From assembly GCA_011772595.1 (NCBI GenBank), contig WVZH01000165.1, positions 2,730 through 13,626 on the forward strand: a stretch of DNA of 10,897 nt, read 5' to 3'. The notes beneath the pieces are model-generated. The model had not been told where the DNA came from. It did no database searches and saw only the letters and a program-made list of their open reading frames with translations. Shown here piece by piece: positions 5,193-10,897 of the stretch (its first letter is position 1; the number at the start of each line of letters is the position of its first letter). The position numbers and the translations under genes are program-made. Source of the DNA: Anaerolineales bacterium (lineage in GTDB: Bacteria; Chloroflexota; Anaerolineae; Anaerolineales; E44-bin32).

Positions 5193-5834
5193 ATGTGTGC
5201 GGCGTTGTTTCCGCAAGGTATCCCACGAAGGAAACGGATCTTCGACCTGGTGCTTACACTGCCAGGGCTGATCCTGATCAGTCCTTTTCTCTTCGTGATC
5301 GCGCTATTGGTACGCTTTCGTCTTGGGAAACCGGTGCTTTTTCGCCAAATGCGCCCCGGTTATCTCGGTAAGCCGTTTGCAATCTACAAGTTTCGAACGA
5401 TGACGGATGCTCGTGATGAGGACGGTGCTCTTCTCCCCGACGCCGAGCGGATGACATGGTTTGGGCGCATTTTGCGATCCTTCAGTCTCGACGAGTTGCC
5501 GGAGGTTATTAATGTGCTGCGCGGGGAAATGAGTTTGGTGGGACCAAGACCGCTCTTGATGCAATATCTCGACCGTTACACACCTGAGCAGGCTCGCAGG
5601 CACGAAGTATTGCCGGGAATTACAGGATGGGCACAGGTCAGTGGGCGTAATGTTATCACCTGGGAAGATAAGTTCCGCCACGATGTGTGGTACGTGGATC
5701 ACTGGTCCCTAAGATTGGATTTGAAGATACTCTGGCAAACGCTTTGGAAAGCGATCAAGCGGGAGGGTATCAGCCAACCGGGTCATGCTACAGCGGAGGA
5801 ATTTATGGGCGATGAGGAGATGGATGGGGTCTAA
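5193..5834 (+). CDS. Small monotopic phosphoglycosyl transferase (bacterial sugar transferase, PglC/WcaJ-C type)
   Basis: This 213-residue protein corresponds to the catalytic domain of the bacterial sugar transferase family (PF02397), without the N-terminal membrane domain of WbaP/WcaJ. It transfers a sugar-1-phosphate from a nucleotide sugar to undecaprenyl phosphate, the first membrane step of glycan assembly. Visible features are the KRIFD entry at 14-18 and a re-entrant hydrophobic helix at about 18-40 broken by Ser30-Pro31. KFRTM at 66-70, the catalytic Asp100-Glu101 dyad in SLDELPEVINVL, SLVGPRP at 114-120 and PGITGWAQVSGRN at 141-153 follow. A purine-rich site (AAGAGGT, about 5176-5182) lies about 10 nt before the ATG. 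The length matches PglC, which uses UDP-di-N-acetylbacillosamine. With PglD-like and PglE-like enzymes downstream, a related amino sugar is a reasonable guess, but specificity is not encoded in an obvious motif. The 152-bp gap before it contains no gene I can support. Confidence 0.93.
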   Translation: MCAALFPQGIPRRKRIFDLVLTLPGLILISPFLFVIALLVRFRLGKPVLFRQMRPGYLGKPFAIYKFRTMTDARDEDGALLPDAERMTWFGRILRSFSLDELPEVINVLRGEMSLVGPRPLLMQYLDRYTPEQARRHEVLPGITGWAQVSGRNVITWEDKFRHDVWYVDHWSLRLDLKILWQTLWKAIKREGISQPGHATAEEFMGDEEMDGV

Positions 5835-5971
5835 GGGTGGAGAGACGAACGAAAGGATAAAGTGTTATATAGATGGGCTGCTATGGATCCAAGTGGATTG
5901 CGATCCGGGGAGGTTATGAATAATTCTGTCAAATGAGAGTTTCGGATTGCTAGAAGGGGTTTTTACTAGAG

Positions 5972-5999
5972 TTGACTTGTGGTATAAGAGGCGTACAAA
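5972..5999 (+). promoter_or_regulatory. Candidate sigma70-type promoter upstream of the 63-residue ORF
   Basis: TTGACT at 5972-5977 matches the -35 consensus at five of six positions. TACAAA at 5994-5999, 16 bp downstream, matches the -10 consensus at four of six. It lies in the AT-richer part of the 254-bp gap 5835-6088, which otherwise holds no supported gene. The -35 element overlaps the first copy of a direct repeat, so a regulator could act here. Alternative -10 elements further downstream (around 6032-6037) are possible. Confidence 0.35.
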
Positions 6000-6013
6000 A
6001 GTCTGACTTGTGG
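5973..6013 (+). repeat. Pair of 10-bp direct repeats, 31 bp apart (possible operator)
   Basis: TGACTTGTGG occurs at 5973-5982 and again at 6004-6013, each preceded by GT or GTC. The start-to-start spacing of 31 bp is close to three helical turns, placing both copies on the same DNA face. They straddle the candidate promoter, which suits tandem binding of a regulator. No matching regulator gene is in the window. Confidence 0.4.
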
Positions 6014-6077
6014 AAATTGCACAAATAGGAATAAGATATATGTATCAGCAAGGCATTTGACACTAACTCACAGCAGA

Positions 6078-6084
6078 GGAGGAG
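6078..6084 (+). promoter_or_regulatory. Strong Shine-Dalgarno fixing the GTG start of the small ORF
   Basis: GGAGGAG ends 4 nt before the GTG at 6089, within a longer purine run from 6075. It is the strongest ribosome binding site in the window and is the main reason to accept the 63-codon frame as a real, possibly highly translated gene. Confidence 0.7.
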
Positions 6085-6088
6085 TAAC

Positions 6089-6280
6089 GTGAAAGAACCC
6101 CTTGAATTCTATGATATTAAAACGAAGACTAAGTTCACGAGTTCGGAATGGAGGATCGAATCCAAAGAGTCGAAGGGAAAGACTCGCTGGTTTGCCGTCG
6201 CTCGCGCCCCGGGAGGAACACATGAAGCCTGGCGGATCGTAGCTGCGGATTTCGCTAAGAAATACACGCAAATGTATTAA
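6089..6280 (+). CDS. Small conserved-looking protein of unknown function (63 aa)
   Basis: I do not recognise this protein. It begins with GTG (MKEPLEFYDIK) behind a near-perfect Shine-Dalgarno and ends at TAA, 24 nt before the stem of a Rho-independent terminator. It has a candidate promoter upstream, so it looks like a self-contained single-gene unit within the glycan locus. The sequence is rich in Lys, Arg, Phe, Tyr and Trp, with no cysteine, no signal peptide and no membrane segment. Alternating polar and hydrophobic residues (FYDIKTKTKFTSSEWRIES, then TRWFAVARAP and AWRIVAADF) suggest a small beta-rich fold of five or so strands with a short C-terminal helix. A nucleic-acid-binding or regulatory role is conceivable from size and charge, but nothing proves it. 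The genetic signals around it argue against a chance frame. Confidence 0.72.
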   Translation: MKEPLEFYDIKTKTKFTSSEWRIESKESKGKTRWFAVARAPGGTHEAWRIVAADFAKKYTQMY

Positions 6281-6288
6281 AGAGCACA

Positions 6289-6351
6289 TTGGAGTTGTGT
6301 ATCCCGAGCTGCCCTTGCAAGTGGGCGGCTCGTTCTTTTTGTACACTCCAA
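6289..6351. repeat. Outer inverted repeat enclosing the terminator
   Basis: TTGGA (6289-6293) and GTGTA (6297-6301) can pair with TCCAA (6347-6351) and TACAC (6342-6346), giving ten pairs with a 3-nt bulge. This second stem encloses both the terminator hairpin and its T-run. It might stabilise the transcript 3' end or act as a DNA-level operator for the downstream E1 genes; which of these, if any, is unknown. Confidence 0.45.
6305..6340 (+). terminator. Rho-independent terminator after the small ORF
   Basis: CGAGCTGCCC (6305-6314) pairs with GGGCGGCTCG (6323-6332) over 10 bp with a single G-U wobble and an 8-nt loop. It is followed directly by TTCTTTTT (6333-6340). This separates the small ORF from the 2-oxoacid dehydrogenase block, which must then have its own promoter or depend on readthrough. 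Confidence 0.85.
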
Positions 6352-6382
6352 CGGTTGTGTTATCATTTTTCTGCTCCTGTCG

Positions 6383-6399
6383 CCTGGTTTGATACCGGG
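6383..6399 (+). promoter_or_regulatory. Short hairpin just upstream of the E1 alpha ribosome binding site
   Basis: CCTGGT (6383-6388) and ACCGGG (6394-6399) can form a 6-bp stem with one wobble and a 5-nt loop, 6 nt before the GAGG ribosome binding site at 6406-6409. No T-run follows, so it is not a terminator. A modest leader structure affecting translation is possible. Confidence 0.25.
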
Positions 6400-6418
6400 T
6401 TGGATGAGGCGTGATTGA

Positions 6419-7345
6419 ATGGTGTCTCAAGTTCCCCAGCAAGAAGAATTCTATCGCCAGATGTTACGTATCCGGCTCTTTGAGGAGACGGTACTGGAGT
6501 TGTTCCCACGTGGCGTGATCTACGGCACCACGCATACCTACATCGGCCAGGAAGCAAACGCGGTTGGCGTGTTGAGTTGGTTGGAAGACGGCGATGTCGT
6601 TGTGAGCAATCATCGTTGTCACGGGCACTTCCTGGCCTATGGTGGTTCGATGCATGCCCTGGCGGCGGAATTGATGGGACGATCAACCGGGGTGTGCGGC
6701 GGGCGCGGTGGCAGCCAGCATGTCAAATGGAAGGATTTTTACGCCAACGGTATCCTGGGTGGGACGATCCCGCTCGCGGTCGGAATTGCTTTTGCCGAGA
6801 TGGTGAAAGGAAACGGCAAGATCGTCTTCGCTTTCATGGGTGATGGGACGCTTGGTGAGGGCGTGGTATACGAAAGCCTCAACATGGCTTCGTTATGGCA
6901 ACTCCCGGTACTTTTCGTTCTTGAGAACAACCGCTATGCCCAGAGCACACCCATCCGCATGAATCTTGCCGGTGAGATCTCGGTGCGCTTCCAGGCTTTC
7001 GGCATCCAGGCCGACGAGATCGAAGCGGCTGACGTGGTTTCTATTCATGAACTCGCCCGGGAGGCTGTGACAAGCGTGCGCGGGGGCGCAGGACCGCGCG
7101 CAGTTATTCTACACACCTACCGCTTTGCTCCACACTCAAAAGGCGACGACACGCGAGACCCAGAAGAGATCGCTAGCTTCAGAGCCCGGGATCCACTACG
7201 TTTGTTGGGGGAAAGTATCCCGGAGAATTCAAGGCGTGACATCGGATCGAGAATTACCCTTGAGGTCGAGCAGGCATTCAAAAAAGCAGAATCCGACCCC
7301 ATGGCAGACCCCCACACGCTCACTCCACCATTGGACGTCGCCTAA
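6419..7345 (+). CDS. 2-oxoacid dehydrogenase E1 component, alpha subunit (ThDP-dependent)
   Basis: This 308-residue protein is the ThDP-binding half of an alpha2beta2 2-oxoacid dehydrogenase E1 (pyruvate, branched-chain or acetoin dehydrogenase type). It decarboxylates a 2-oxoacid and passes the acyl group to a lipoyl arm. Motifs seen are IGQEANAVG at 42-50, SNHRCHGHFLA with His65, and GGRGGSQH at 94-101. The ThDP signature starts GDGTLGEG at 141 and ends with Asn170-Asn171. An active-site loop, HSKGDDTRDPEE, starts at His239. It is at the short end for the family, consistent with compact bacterial forms. GAGG at 6406-6409 precedes the ATG by 9 nt. The stop overlaps the beta-subunit ATG by 1 nt (TAATG), so the two are translationally coupled. 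The substrate cannot be assigned. The location beside sugar genes, not beside a normal E2 or E3, argues for a specialised role. Confidence 0.93.
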   Translation: MVSQVPQQEEFYRQMLRIRLFEETVLELFPRGVIYGTTHTYIGQEANAVGVLSWLEDGDVVVSNHRCHGHFLAYGGSMHALAAELMGRSTGVCGGRGGSQHVKWKDFYANGILGGTIPLAVGIAFAEMVKGNGKIVFAFMGDGTLGEGVVYESLNMASLWQLPVLFVLENNRYAQSTPIRMNLAGEISVRFQAFGIQADEIEAADVVSIHELAREAVTSVRGGAGPRAVILHTYRFAPHSKGDDTRDPEEIASFRARDPLRLLGESIPENSRRDIGSRITLEVEQAFKKAESDPMADPHTLTPPLDVA

Positions 7346-8343
7346 TGAGCACTGTGCTTGAAGCCTTGAACCATGCACTTGCCAGTTGTCTGTCCGCATC
7401 AGAAGATGTGTATTTCCTTGGAGAAGATATCCTGGAACCATACGGTGGGGCCTTCAAGGTTGCCCGTGGCCTATCGACAAGTTTCCCAGAGCGTGTGATT
7501 AGCACACCGGTTTCGGAAGCTGGGATTGTAGGCGTGGGAGTCGGGATGGCTCTGCGAGGTCTACGGCCGGTGGTAGAGATCATGTTCGGCGATTTTGTCA
7601 CCCTGGCCGCTGACCAGCTAATCAACCATGCAGCCAAATTACGTTGGATGAGCGCCGACCAGGTATCTGTGCCTTTGGTGGTACGCACGCCAATGGGTGG
7701 ACGTCGCGGTTACGGTCCCACACATAGCCAGACACTGGAGAAGCATTTTCTGGGGACTCCTGGACTTCGAGTCGTTGCGGTATCCGCGTTGGACGACCCT
7801 GGAAAGCTTCTGCAACAGGCGGTTCTAGAGGACGATGACCCTGTGCTTTTCGTTGAACACAAGCTGCTCTATGCTCGGCCGGTGATATCTCTAAACGATC
7901 AGGTTGAGTTTCACGTAACCCGGCAGGACGGACGCTATCCGACCTATCATTTAGAACTGGCAGGATCACCCTCGCCCGTCCTTACGCTTGCGGCCTACGG
8001 TTACATGGCGGAACTCGCGCGCGAAACGATACAGCGGCTGGCATATGAGCACGAGATCTTTTGTGAACTTGTTGTGCCAACACAATTGAGTCCATTCGAA
8101 CTCCGGTTCCTCGAGACACATGTCTCGCGCACAAGACGCCTACTGACACTCGAGGAGGGATCACGACCGTTAGGCTGGGGTGCGGAGGTCGTCGCACGCC
8201 TGCATGAATCGGCGATACCGGCTCTGGAAGCCAGACGCCTCGCTGCCTGGGATATGCCCGTGCCAGCGGCTGCGCCTCTCGAGGAGGCGGTCTTGCCCGG
8301 TGTGGATGATATTCAGCAGGCGGTGAAGGAGATGGTGTCTTGA
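7345..8343 (+). CDS. 2-oxoacid dehydrogenase E1 component, beta subunit
   Basis: This 332-residue protein has the transketolase-like pyrimidine-binding domain (about 1-180) and C-terminal domain (about 195-325) of E1 beta subunits. Visible landmarks are GEDI at 26-29, the cofactor-activating Glu58 in TPVSEAGIVG, and His127 in GPTHSQTLE. The last corresponds to the conserved GPQHSQ catalytic loop that receives the lipoyl domain. It pairs with the alpha subunit encoded immediately upstream to form an intact E1 heterotetramer. All conserved motifs appear intact, so this is not a decaying copy. A 57-bp gap separates it from the lipoyl-acyltransferase fusion, with no terminator between, so one transcript is likely. 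Confidence 0.93.
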   Translation: MSTVLEALNHALASCLSASEDVYFLGEDILEPYGGAFKVARGLSTSFPERVISTPVSEAGIVGVGVGMALRGLRPVVEIMFGDFVTLAADQLINHAAKLRWMSADQVSVPLVVRTPMGGRRGYGPTHSQTLEKHFLGTPGLRVVAVSALDDPGKLLQQAVLEDDDPVLFVEHKLLYARPVISLNDQVEFHVTRQDGRYPTYHLELAGSPSPVLTLAAYGYMAELARETIQRLAYEHEIFCELVVPTQLSPFELRFLETHVSRTRRLLTLEEGSRPLGWGAEVVARLHESAIPALEARRLAAWDMPVPAAAPLEEAVLPGVDDIQQAVKEMVS

Positions 8344-8400
8344 AAGAAACACAGAGGGGAGTGCGCCGATTACGTGGTGATGAGTCGAGAGGGCTAGGAG

Positions 8401-9489
8401 ATGCCTGAGGCGATAGAAGTTCCTGTCCCATTGTTGAATCCGAATGAGCGGGAAGCCTTGGTGGCGGAGGTTTATGTGTCTGCTGGCGAGCGCGTGGACG
8501 CGGGCGATGTTCTCTGTACCTTGGAAACGACTAAATCAACCGCGGACGTCGTGGCAGAGCAGGAGGGGTACGTTGTCGGATTGCGTGTCATGGTGGGGGA
8601 TGTGTTGGTCGCCGGAGAGCGAATGTGTTGGCTGGCGAAGGAACCCGATTGGCAACCCCCTGAACCCGCTCCCCAAGAGCCCTCCGAAGAGGCGGATGTC
8701 CTTGAAGGTCTGCGGATCACAGGACCTGCGCTGACACTTGCTCGTGAGGTCGGCCTCGACCTGACTTCACTGCCACTTGGGCCCTTGATCACGCGTGAAA
8801 CCATTCGACGAATACAAGGGGGTGAGGAAGCGAGCGATCTTCCTGAGGGACCGTTTGACCAACGAGCGCTTTTGATCTACGGCGGTGGCGGACATGGGAA
8901 GTCACTCATTGATATGGTGCGGGCGCTAGGGGAGCACGAACTCGTTGGTGTGCTCGACGATAGACTGGAGATAGGGAGCAGAGTGCTTGAGGTCCCGGTG
9001 TTGGGTGGCGGCGAGGTCATGGAAGCCCTGTACGCGCGTGGCTTGCGCTTGGCGGTAAACGCTGTCGGAGGCGTGGGTGATATTATGAGCCGGGTGTGGG
9101 TGTTCGAATCCATGCTGGGGGTGGGATTTGATTGCCCTTCACTGATCCATCCGACAGCCTTTGTTGAGCCAAGCGCGACTCTGGAGACGGGTGTACAAGT
9201 CTTCCCACATGCTTATGTCGGCAGTGATGTGCAGATCGACTTTGGTGTGATCATTAACACAGGCGCTGTGGTGTCGCACGATTGCCATGTGGGCACGTAC
9301 GCCAATGTGGCCCCTGGTGCGTTGATTGCCGGGGGCGTGTCGATCGGAGAACGCGTGTTGATCGGTATGGGTGTGACGATCAACCTGCGCGTCTCGGTGG
9401 GTGCCGGTGCACGGGTGGGGAATAGTGCGGTGGTAAAGGAGGACGTCCCACCTGGCGGGATCGTGCGCGCAGGTGCGGTGTGGCCATAG
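8401..9489 (+). CDS. Lipoyl domain - E1/E3-binding domain - PglD/NeuD-type sugar N-acyltransferase fusion
   Basis: This 362-residue protein has three parts. Residues 1-80 are a lipoyl domain: the beta-turn reads LETTKSTAD with Lys45 at the lipoylated position of the usual ETDKA. Residues 81-103 are a Pro/Glu-rich flexible linker. Residues 104-140 match a peripheral-subunit-binding domain (GPALTLAREVGLDL, then GPLITRETIRRI), which in E2 proteins docks E1 or E3. Residues 156-362 are a PglD/NeuD-type acyltransferase, with a GGGGHGK nucleotide-sugar loop (His165), hexapeptide-repeat beta-helix from about 250, and INTGAVVSHDC carrying Asn286 and His293, the position of PglD's catalytic base His125. 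The catalytic core of a normal E2 is absent. It follows both E1 genes and precedes a sugar aminotransferase, so it probably moves an acyl group from E1 to an amino sugar. Oddities: Asn302 replaces a His usual in the family, and the C-terminal GxPA-like CoA-contact motif is missing. The start at 8401 gives the expected lipoyl-domain N-terminus. Confidence 0.9.
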   Translation: MPEAIEVPVPLLNPNEREALVAEVYVSAGERVDAGDVLCTLETTKSTADVVAEQEGYVVGLRVMVGDVLVAGERMCWLAKEPDWQPPEPAPQEPSEEADVLEGLRITGPALTLAREVGLDLTSLPLGPLITRETIRRIQGGEEASDLPEGPFDQRALLIYGGGGHGKSLIDMVRALGEHELVGVLDDRLEIGSRVLEVPVLGGGEVMEALYARGLRLAVNAVGGVGDIMSRVWVFESMLGVGFDCPSLIHPTAFVEPSATLETGVQVFPHAYVGSDVQIDFGVIINTGAVVSHDCHVGTYANVAPGALIAGGVSIGERVLIGMGVTINLRVSVGAGARVGNSAVVKEDVPPGGIVRAGAVWP

Positions 9490-9583
9490 TAGAAGGCTTT
9501 CTATCCAACTGCATTCGGGTTAAATAATATCTTAGTAACTGCAGTCATTTTCTGATTACCGGAGGCTACGCGTACTTATCATT

Positions 9584-9590
9584 AGGAGGG
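9584..9590 (+). promoter_or_regulatory. Shine-Dalgarno deciding the aminotransferase start
   Basis: AGGAGGG lies 5 nt before the in-frame TTG at 9596 and 11 nt before the GTG at 9602. Either codon could start the protein. The spacing slightly favours TTG, the codon type slightly favours GTG, and the difference is two residues. Confidence 0.65.
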
Positions 9591-9595
9591 AAAGC

Positions 9596-10801
9596 TTGCC
9601 TGTGGAAGAAACAGAACGATCGACAAATTCCCCTATTCCAATGTCGTCTCCAGATCTGACGGAGGCGGATCGCGAGGCTGTATCGCAGGTATTACGCACC
9701 CCTCGATTGAGTATGGGTCCGCAAGTCGAGGCATTTGAGATGGCGGTTGGCGAGTATGTAGGCGCTAAGTATGCGATCGCGGTGAGCTCTGGGACTGCAG
9801 GATTGCATCTCTGTGTGCGCGCTGCTGGGATTTCGGATGGTGATTGGGTGATCACGACGCCTTTCTCGTTCGTGGCTTCGGCGAACGTCTTGCTCTACGA
9901 ACGAGCGACACCAGTATTCGTCGATGTCGACCCGCGGACCGGCAACATCGATCCCGAACTCGTCGCGCGGGCTTGTGAGGATTTGAGGCGCGGCGGTAAA
10001 ACGACCAAACATTGGCTGCCGCGTAAGGGCGCAAGCGCTGATGGTGAATTAAGGGCGATCCTACCAGTGGACGTTTTTGGGCAGCCGGCTGATTACGATC
10101 ATTTGATCGCGACGGCGCGCGATCATGATCTGGCGATATTGGAAGACTCGTGTGAGGCTATTGGAGCGCGATATAAGGGTCGATCGGTGGGCGTGCTTGG
10201 TGACGTAGGAGTGTTTGCCTTCTACCCTAACAAGCAGGTCACGACCGGCGAGGGTGGGGTTGTTGTAACAGACAGAGGAGATTGGGCAGAGCTCATTCGT
10301 GCCCTTCGTAACCAGGGGCGCGCCCCTGGGGATACTTGGCTTGAGCATACCTATCTAGGCTACAACTATCGTTTGGACGAGTTGAGCGCCGCCTTGGGCA
10401 GGGCGCAGATGGCGCGCGTTGAGGATTTGTTGCAGAAACGAGACCGTGTAGCTAGTTGGTACAATGAGCGACTTGCAGAAATCCCCGGCGTTGAAGCCCC
10501 ATCCCCCGGCCCGGAAACCACGCGGATGAGTTGGTTCGTGTACGTGGTTCGGTTGGATCGAGGCATTGATCGACAACATGTGGCCAACCTGCTGGCTGGG
10601 CAGGGGATTCCTAGCAGACCCTACTTCGTTCCGATTCATCTGCAACCTTACTTTGTCGAACGTTTTGGCTACCGGCAGGGAGATTTTCCGGTCGTCGAGG
10701 AGCTTGGTCTAAGAAGTTTGGCTCTGCCATTCTCTGGTGTGATGTTGGAGGAGCAAGTTGATCGAGTTTGCCAGGCACTTCGACAGGTTCTCCACGGGTA
10801 A
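9596..10801 (+). CDS. DegT/DnrJ/EryC1/StrS-family PLP sugar aminotransferase
   Basis: This 401-residue enzyme belongs to the sugar aminotransferase family that converts a keto group on a nucleotide sugar to an amine using PLP and glutamate or glutamine. Visible landmarks are SSGTAGLHL (64-72, PLP phosphate contact), TTPFSFVASAN (87-97), VDVFGQPAD (158-166), LEDSCEAIGA with Asp184 contacting the PLP ring nitrogen, and FYPNKQVTTGEGG with Lys213 as the Schiff-base lysine. The N-terminal PIPMSSPDLTEAD and C-terminal FVPIHLQPYF and SLALPFSG motifs are complete. A slightly long loop at about 130-152 (RRGGKTTKHWLPRKG) is noteworthy. The gene lies 106 bp after the lipoyl-acyltransferase fusion with a strong ribosome binding site. 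The amine it makes is the natural acceptor for that acyltransferase, as in the PglE-PglD pair of bacillosamine synthesis. The sugar and position cannot be set from sequence alone. Confidence 0.93.
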   Translation: MPVEETERSTNSPIPMSSPDLTEADREAVSQVLRTPRLSMGPQVEAFEMAVGEYVGAKYAIAVSSGTAGLHLCVRAAGISDGDWVITTPFSFVASANVLLYERATPVFVDVDPRTGNIDPELVARACEDLRRGGKTTKHWLPRKGASADGELRAILPVDVFGQPADYDHLIATARDHDLAILEDSCEAIGARYKGRSVGVLGDVGVFAFYPNKQVTTGEGGVVVTDRGDWAELIRALRNQGRAPGDTWLEHTYLGYNYRLDELSAALGRAQMARVEDLLQKRDRVASWYNERLAEIPGVEAPSPGPETTRMSWFVYVVRLDRGIDRQHVANLLAGQGIPSRPYFVPIHLQPYFVERFGYRQGDFPVVEELGLRSLALPFSGVMLEEQVDRVCQALRQVLHG

Positions 10802-10837
10802 CCCTCTCTGTTTTCGTGTTGGATCAAATGAATGACG

Positions 10838-10897
10838 TAGGGGCGGTTCACGATGTACAACCCGGGGACATAGGTAACACATTGACCCGGACACATA
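10838..10897. repeat. Repeat-like sequence at the right edge (possible IS or palindromic-repeat end)
   Basis: After the aminotransferase stop the sequence has a TAGGGGCGGTTCACGA segment, which resembles one half of a common environmental palindromic repeat. Two related motifs follow 25 bp apart: CCCGGGGACATAGG from 10861 and CCCGGACACATA from 10886. This style resembles the ends of IS481-like elements from memory, but the window stops before any transposase is visible. No convincing gene is present in 10802-10897. Confidence 0.3.

Follow-up and report, generated by a model that had tools for sequence, protein, structure and literature searches.

A probable lipoyl-arm sugar N-acyltransferase with its own E1 genes in an Anaerolineales bacterium

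Contig WVZH01000165.1 of an Anaerolineales bacterium carries a gene for a 362-residue protein in which a lipoyl domain and a segment resembling a peripheral subunit-binding domain (PSBD) are joined to a NeuD/PglD-type sugar N-acyltransferase. We call this protein the fusion, and we call the sequence studied, 10,897 nucleotides at positions 2,730-13,626 of the contig, the window. All eight genes of the window lie on the + strand. Directly upstream of the fusion are the genes for E1alpha and E1beta, the two subunits of a thiamine diphosphate (ThDP)-dependent dehydrogenase (E1), which a preliminary description of the same sequence did not include; downstream is the gene for a DegT-family sugar aminotransferase. 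The two E1 genes overlap by one base, the fusion begins 57 bases after E1beta and DegT begins 106 bases after the fusion. The fusion is probably more than a NeuD: a sugar N-acyltransferase with a lipoyl arm and an E1 of its own.

Domain architecture of the fusion

The four genes and the parts of the fusion are as follows.

6419-7345, + strand: E1alpha, ThDP-dependent dehydrogenase E1, 308 amino acids (PF00676, E 5.4e-55)
7345-8343, + strand: E1beta, 332 amino acids (PF02779, E 8.4e-31; PF02780, E 1.4e-14)
8401-9489, + strand: lipoyl - PSBD-like - NeuD/PglD fusion, 362 amino acids plus stop (open reading frame and domain searches)
8401-8637, + strand: lipoyl domain, residues 1-79 (PF00364 at residues 6-76; AlphaFold2 strands 5-79; Foldseek match 3crk_C, E 2.9e-5)
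8533-8535, + strand: codon of the presumed lipoyl lysine K45, in ETTKS (K in 260 of 260 fusion rows)
8638-8706, + strand: Pro/Glu-rich linker, residues 80-102 (from sequence; predicted local distance difference score, pLDDT, below 50 at 91-97)
8707-8826, + strand: divergent segment resembling a PSBD but lacking its usual loop, residues 103-142 (hhalign; AlphaFold2 helices; PF02817 unmatched)
8860-9138, + strand: PglD N-terminal domain region with GGGGHGK, residues 154-246 (PF17836 at residues 157-231)
9139-9453, + strand: left-handed beta-helix acyltransferase domain, residues 247-351 (PF00132; PerB, PglB-AT and PglD matches)
9277-9279, + strand: codon of the presumed catalytic base H293 (aligned with the residue mutated in PerB H141N, 4eaa)
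9596-10801, + strand: DegT-family sugar aminotransferase (PF01041, E 4.2e-109; nearest models PseC and LegC, below both cut-offs)

The two ends of the protein are assigned by independent searches. The Biotin_lipoyl model PF00364 matches residues 6-76 (E 7.5e-13; 48.6 bits against a cut-off of 22.1), and the Foldseek match 3crk_C is an E2 lipoyl domain. The N-terminal part matches E2 lipoyl domains generally, and biotin carriers, which share the fold, also appear among its matches in Foldseek and NCBIfam. The C-terminal part matches PerB, PglB-AT, PglD and VioB. In Pfam it carries PglD_N at residues 157-231 (E 6.3e-9) and Hexapep (E 4.9e-12), and the NCBIfam model NeuD_NnaD, TIGR03570, scores 169 bits over residues 157-355, above its cut-off of 160.8. 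The GGGGHGK region presumably binds a nucleotide sugar, as in the PglD family. No match to the 2-oxoacid_dh core, PF00198, was found in the fusion up to E 0.5; a beta-helix stands in its place, and because the core is of another fold the protein is not an E2 by membership. The AlphaFold2 model has a mean pLDDT of 79.5 and a predicted template modelling score of 0.46; flexible joints between the domains probably account for the low value of the latter. The preliminary description had read a lipoyl domain with Lys45, a Pro-rich linker and a PglD/NeuD left-handed beta-helix from the sequence, and all three are borne out. It had also named structure prediction and a domain search as checks; these recovered the lipoyl, PglD_N and hexapeptide parts and left PF02817, the PSBD model, unmatched.

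The PSBD it had named is thus the part that needs qualification. PF02817 gives no match in the window's fusion at E<=0.5; of 62 members of the family it matches two at E<=1, the better of them with an E of 0.0085. PSBDs typically contain a GxGxxGR loop. That loop is absent from all 260 aligned fusions, and the 21 PSBD references used here, taken from ordinary E2s of related genomes, were themselves selected by it (25 were found and four dropped as false by eye). Aligned with these references by hhalign, the fusion segment gives a probability of 95, an E of 3.7e-8 and a score of 38.7. None of 200 column-permuted profiles reached that score (best 17.8), and the reversed profile scored 11.7. AlphaFold2 places one helix at residues 108-116 and another at 132-139, with a short turn between them at 121-123, an arrangement that we take to be the PSBD pattern. 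By profile comparison the middle segment is probably a divergent relative of PSBDs despite the failure of PF02817.

The architecture is shared by many proteins. A search with the window's fusion scored 7996 candidates and found 2407 relatives at E<=1e-3; all 120 listed are of fusion length, and some of the remainder may be NeuDs without a lipoyl part. Starting from a distant fusion, a second search listed 120 of 1067 relatives, all with PF00364, and one with the lipoyl-PSBD part alone listed 120 of 263, of which 81 were new. The motif E[TNS]TK occurs in 321 of the 322 listed proteins, the window's included. Nearly all are full length, and four of those looked at are truncated or chimeric. At least 321 lipoyl-NeuD proteins of the same kind, nearly all full length, exclude a chance fusion and supply the unstudied homologues that the preliminary description had suspected. 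Where the sources name them, they are mostly acetyltransferases of the 'NeuD family', the 'NeuD/PglB/VioB family' or 'EpsM', plain names under which the lipoyl arm goes unnoticed. The few relatives with an organism name and 22 genome-contig loci belong to the Anaerolineae or, more broadly, the Chloroflexota. In a survey confined to 400 evenly drawn Chloroflexota genomes, fusions of the window's type occur in seven. No record in the plasmid and phage collections (0 of 64 and 0 of 9) covers 80% of the fusion at one place.

Which residues are kept? All 121 rows of one alignment have E42, T44 and K45. In a wider alignment of 260 fusion rows (137 in clade A and 123 in clade B, with overlap between rows, which are therefore not independent), E42, K45, N286, H293 and G311 never vary.

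Coupling of the fusion to E1

The E1 genes accompany the lipoyl arm. Among the 22 genome-contig loci, all 13 with a fusion have E1alpha and E1beta directly upstream, and none of the nine NeuD-only loci has E1 within the stretch examined, which in some is only about 6 kb. Twelve further loci from the 400-genome draw follow the same division: E1 stands at six of six fusions and at none of the six others. With the window included, E1 is coupled to 20 of 20 fusions and to 0 of 15 loci that lack a working arm; in a few of the 20, E1alpha runs off the contig. The converse also holds. E1beta matches at E<=1e-100 occur in 7 of the 400 genomes, exactly the seven that bear fusions; weaker matches, 1e-60 to 1e-83, occur in ten more. 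Locus L033 (genome G238, 8007-9116, + strand) keeps a lipoyl remnant from which the lysine is missing; its NeuD is intact, but it has neither a PSBD nor a nearby E1. Among 22 genomes, none was found to combine a fusion with a close relative lacking the lipoyl part. Separately, one lipoyl-free NeuD relative (G198:C1:2855389-2856057, - strand) has an in-frame TAA inside the match.

Residues of the NeuD domain change along with the arm. We compared the 260 fusions with 12 close lipoyl-free relatives. Residue 320 is L in 259 of the fusions and Q or R in all 12 relatives; residue 268 is F in 246 fusions and L in all 12; residue 287 is T in 253 fusions and never T in the 12. The coils repeat every 18 residues, which places 320 on top of 302 and 268 beneath 286, and we take residues 302 and 286 to correspond to His134 and Asn118 of PglD. 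In NeuD trees built from random samples of the listed proteins, one of them without columns 320, 268 and 287, the lipoyl arm changed three times, at least two of these on branches where the change is forced, and residues 320 and 287 changed at each of the three.

The hosts can supply the remaining machinery. Among 19 genomes with fusions, lipoyl synthase (LipA) is above cut-off in 18 and present as a fragment in the other. Dihydrolipoamide dehydrogenase (E3) is above cut-off in 17, a fragment in one and not found in one, and PF02817, taken as a sign of ordinary E2s, is above cut-off in 16. Of 12 genomes of close lipoyl-free relatives, eight lack LipA, and six of these eight are Leptolinea by name and so not independent. 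In these six Leptolinea genomes (G015, G017-G020 and G022) no lipoyl synthase exceeds the cut-off, although four have E3 above cut-off and matches to PF02817; they may scavenge lipoate.

The E1 pair has unexpected kin. Among the plasmid rows listed, RenH, from a renieramycin symbiont, has the top bit score for both E1 subunits (49% identity to the window's E1alpha over 81% of the query; 266 bits against E1beta). RenH is an E1alpha-beta fusion, and the lipoyl protein next to it, RenI, resembles E2 in its C-terminal part. A tree of 55 E1beta rows splits the 20 fusion E1s, RenH and three similar E1s from 31 conventional E1s of the pyruvate dehydrogenase (PDH), branched-chain 2-oxoacid dehydrogenase (BCDH) and Aco types with support of 100/100. 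For E1alpha, with 43 rows, the division recurs against 19 conventional E1s, again at 100/100. From these E1 trees we excluded fragments, duplicates of a locus and E1 rows that were distant or long-fused; QncN and QncL were not among the rows. When ten more loci were added to the E1beta tree, the fusion E1s formed one clade (98/97) beside a Ren-type neighbour (99/91), with 100/100 on the joint branch under a midpoint root. Q100 and D244 in E1alpha and Y123, P125, G137 and E237 in E1beta set the fusion and Ren types apart from conventional E1s. The three similar E1s are taken as Ren type by kinship, one of them (L102) also by the order ACP-E1-E1-E2 (ACP, acyl carrier protein) beside a nonribosomal peptide synthetase (NRPS) gene; in Streptomyces NBC_01136 an NRPS-type gene is followed downstream by the order ACP-E1alpha-E1beta-E2. 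Going by gene content, we presume that RenH and these three, of which L101 and L103 are unannotated, are of the QncN/QncL kind. RenI, like three E2s related to it, has a lipoyl domain and a segment that by eye resembles a PSBD but lacks the PSBD loop. On the evidence of the trees, the window's E1 is not of the ordinary pyruvate type; it groups with the renieramycin-type E1.

Ren-type E1s with lipoyl proteins related to RenI or E2 also occur in Chloroflexota at L109:2019-5370 (- strand, G191) and L111:6094-9171 (+ strand, G331). A gene of the phosphopantetheinyl transferase family beside the first hints at unexplored carrier-protein pathways in this phylum. At L115:3650-5155 (+ strand, G151), an E1alpha frame has a lipoyl-like N-terminal match of 21.9 bits.

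Related fusions and neighbouring genes

Following the weaker E1beta matches led to two more types of lipoyl protein with a beta-helix acyltransferase.

L113:8788-9885, - strand: lipoyl-NeuD P0327 of genome G180
C195:2958-4115: relative of P0327 in genome G324, 403-residue frame
L110:5000-6601, - strand: P0326 of genome G292, with a lipoyl domain, a true PSBD, a different beta-helix acyltransferase and a C-terminal part (PF02817, E 7.3e-15)

The G180 locus reads GFO/IDH - P0327 - E1alpha - E1beta - DegT - Wzz - Wzy. P0327 has an ordinary lipoyl domain of the IETDK type, keeps the motif GVPAK and has no match to PF02817. The G324 relative, 78% and 58% identical to it in two pieces, is on a different contig from that genome's E1-DegT-Wzy locus. 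In a NeuD tree with some long branches, a split with support of 100/99 separates the G180 and G324 proteins from the window family and its close lipoyl-free kin, and three other lipoyl-free NeuDs stand on the window family's side of it. The G292 locus reads GFO/IDH - E1alpha - E1beta - P0326 - beta-helix protein - DegT. The P0326 type was found in one genome of 330 at E<=1e-30, and none of 802 records in the plasmid and phage collections covers 80% of it at one place. E1 and DegT occur in all three of these genomes and GFO/IDH was seen in two. The E1betas of the two types lie on the conventional side of the E1 tree, on separate branches. An E1 with a lipoyl-bearing beta-helix acyltransferase among amino-sugar genes thus appears, from these trees, to have arisen at least three times. 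Such repeated, separate origins are in our view the best reason to think that the acyltransferase is what the arm serves.

The remaining features of the window are as follows.

16-1569, + strand: gene cut by the window edge, a weak zinc-dehydrogenase-like part joined to a GFO/IDH/MocA oxidoreductase
5193-5834, + strand: initiating sugar-1-phosphate transferase (Bac_transf, 213 amino acids; PF02397, E 1.1e-63)
6305-6332, + strand: terminator-like hairpin upstream of E1alpha, 10 pairs of which 8 are G-C (consensus scan only)

The cut gene is followed by a heparinase II/III-like gene, an order found identically in locus L002, and a glycosyltransferase gene lies between the latter and the sugar-1-phosphate transferase gene. 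The consensus scan that found the hairpin gave seven sites in 5800-10897 against a shuffle mean of 4.1. As the hairpin lies upstream of E1alpha, that gene may open its own transcription unit, and the hairpin may mark the start of a unit E1alpha-E1beta-fusion-DegT. The Pfam scan of the eight window genes found no carrier-protein domain.

Proposed mechanism and alternatives

We consider it probable, from the sequence comparisons above, that E1 charges the lipoyl arm and that the NeuD domain passes the acyl group to a nucleotide-linked amino sugar, bypassing coenzyme A (CoA). With the arm and its own E1 genes adjoining, the acyl group is probably taken from the arm and not from CoA. Direct transfer from arm to sugar is the best reading because the E1 pair adjoins the fusion, the two are present or absent together, the lysine is invariant and similar fusions appear to have formed independently. 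E1, with ThDP, would break down a donor and reductively acylate the lipoyl group on Lys45. The S-acyl-dihydrolipoyl arm would then swing into the active site of the left-handed beta-helix; in PglD this site lies between subunits of the trimer. H293 would activate the amino group of the nucleotide-linked sugar, which the DegT aminotransferase is likely to make, and the acyl group would move to the nitrogen without a CoA intermediate. The arm would be reoxidised by E3 borrowed from the host. The N-acylated sugar would pass to a sugar-1-phosphate transferase, for which the one at 5193-5834 is a possible candidate, and on into surface polysaccharide. A tethered donor is not foreign to this fold: the beta-helix N-acyltransferase LpxD takes its acyl group from acyl-ACP, a protein-tethered thiol, so that the beta-helix fold can accept such a donor.

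Several observations weigh against this proposal or weaken arguments for it. The preliminary description had suggested that acyl groups pass straight from the lipoyl arm to an amino sugar; the architecture, the E1 coupling and the invariant K45 agree with it, but the CoA-binding residues are not clearly lost, and H302 is kept in clade B. The N302 of clade A is shared by 11 of the 12 close lipoyl-free relatives, and residue 302 is in our reading no evidence for a changed donor. Nor is the C-terminal GxPAK motif, which is equally absent with and without the arm (0 of 260 fusions; 0 of 12 lipoyl-free relatives). With only two or three arm changes, no sign test is significant; the smaller NeuD sample needs two changes among its lipoyl-free rows and forces one, and the changes are read as losses mainly because of the L033 remnant. 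LipA is common in the phylum (323 of the 400 genomes at E<=1e-60), which makes its presence in 19 of 19 fusion genomes weak by itself. A sequence search with the window's own genes places DegT close to 6 of the 20 fusions and the sugar transferase close to 10 of them. In the first trees the fusion E1s alone formed a weak clade (84/75 for E1beta; 88/82 for E1alpha), and Ren-type and ordinary E2s are not told apart by a lipoyl-PSBD profile.

What does the arm carry? Given the mechanism, we tentatively favour a glycolyl unit from a ketose phosphate, which would yield an N-glycolyl sugar. It is favoured only because the E1 pair groups with the renieramycin-type E1, in trees that stop short of QncN and QncL. 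QncN, QncL and QncM have been shown to direct how a C2-glycolicacyl unit is made and attached, and a ketose phosphate has been proposed as the donor in the scleric acid system (PMC6335953). Otherwise the acyl group would be acetyl or another unit from a 2-oxoacid. It is quite possible, without being probable, that the same machinery works with an E1 that uses pyruvate or another 2-oxoacid, the arm carrying acetyl, propionyl or isobutyryl and the sugar being N-acetylated or otherwise N-acylated. The closest E1alpha chains of known structure are those of human PDH E1alpha, and the nearest NCBIfam model to the window's E1alpha is pyruvate dehydrogenase E1alpha, at 271.3 bits and below its cut-off of 393.85; the lipoyl-free sister enzymes presumably use acetyl-CoA, and the other two fusion types have E1s on the conventional side. 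Yet the trees place the window's E1s with the Ren type, away from conventional E1s, and with acetyl-CoA always at hand a private E1 would be a costly route to acetyl. That all parts hold together, with CoA-free N-acylation of nucleotide sugars by beta-helix enzymes that have their own arm and private E1, at least three inventions and, in the window family, glycolyl from a ketose phosphate ending in an N-glycolyl sugar at the cell surface, we regard as rather doubtful.

Might the NeuD domain instead be an ordinary acyl-CoA enzyme, with the lipoyl-PSBD part tethering it to E1 or E3 or serving another lipoyl reaction nearby? We think this unlikely. The retained CoA-site residues would suit it, and PSBDs do bind E1 or E3. 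However, the lysine, the PSBD and E1 occur together and are missing together, and NeuD residues beside the active site change to match; the module has no other acyl acceptor; and separate lineages have put a lipoyl arm on a beta-helix acyltransferase. A further proposal, that E1 forms a C-C bond between a two-carbon unit and a keto sugar in the manner of AviB1/AviB2 and that the lipoyl-NeuD acts separately, is highly improbable. PDH-like alpha/beta pairs do act in branched-sugar clusters, but the main text of PMC4425429, which describes them, names no lipoyl protein (0 occurrences), and here the invariant lysine is fused to an acyltransferase and goes with E1. Biotin carriers carry their lysine in an M-K-M type motif. 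That the N-terminal domain is such a carrier, as the fold matches in Foldseek and NCBIfam might suggest, deserves scarcely any credence, since its motif is E-T-T-K and the adjoining partner is a ThDP E1, not a carboxylase.

How new would such an enzyme be? No description of a fusion of this kind was found among the open-access papers listed, most subscription papers lying outside the search. The 'lipoylation' of flagellin glycans in PMC4875605 appears to mean fatty acid chains and not a lipoyl arm. The preliminary description knew of no characterised enzyme that does this, but transfer from a lipoyl arm to a non-CoA acceptor has precedents. Quinocarcin-type glycolicacyl units are made in this way, with an E2-type core and a carrier protein in place of a sugar acyltransferase (PMC6335953).

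The closest of these precedents are the modules QncN/QncL/QncM, NapB/NapD, SclQ1-4 and RenH/RenI, which supply glycolicacyl units to NRPS pathways. The window's E1s group with RenH and its three relatives, and RenI and the three E2s share the combination of a lipoyl domain and a loop-less PSBD-like segment. In the Qnc type, too, the acyl group leaves the arm for an acceptor other than CoA, as PMC6335953 describes and as we suppose here. Their core, unlike that of the fusion, is of the 2-oxoacid_dh type and works on a carrier protein; here it is a sugar N-acyltransferase of unrelated fold set among polysaccharide genes. QncN, QncL, NapB and NapD enter this comparison by description and not by sequence. 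In the pepteridine pathway of Photorhabdus, E1 and a lipoyl-bearing E2-NRPS fusion likewise serve to place an acyl group on an amine, with E3 likely supplied by the host in the authors' view, but there transfer is proposed to run through a carrier protein and a condensation domain (PMC5384830).

The remaining comparisons concern the two halves of the protein. With the E2s of PDH, 2-oxoglutarate dehydrogenase, BCDH and AcoC the fusion shares the order lipoyl - linker - PSBD or PSBD-like segment - acyltransferase and E1 genes upstream; it differs from them in lacking PF00198, in its loop-less PSBD-like segment and in an E1 outside the conventional group. With NeuD, PglD, PerB and VioB it shares PglD_N, the left-handed beta-helix and the catalytic His, and it scores above the TIGR03570 cut-off, but those proteins have no lipoyl or PSBD part. 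Characterised NeuD/PglD-type members use free acetyl-CoA, and the PDB titles of the structures matched show CoA complexes. LpxD and LpxA are also left-handed beta-helix acyltransferases, with weak sequence similarity to the fusion; their donor is acyl-ACP, with the phosphopantetheine arm on a separate protein. Judged by these comparisons, the fusion is probably a new branch of a small class of E1-lipoyl systems that bypass CoA.

If the proposal is correct, lipoyl-bound acyl groups would gain a third outlet beside CoA and carrier proteins: straight onto an amino sugar. An enzyme of unrelated fold would wire central carbon metabolism to surface polysaccharide. Lipoate would acquire a further use, in a small acylation module that is complete in itself and in which the E1 step decides the donor. 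For the Chloroflexota, the prediction is a sugar bearing N-glycolyl, or another N-acyl group, and made by a route that can be defined.

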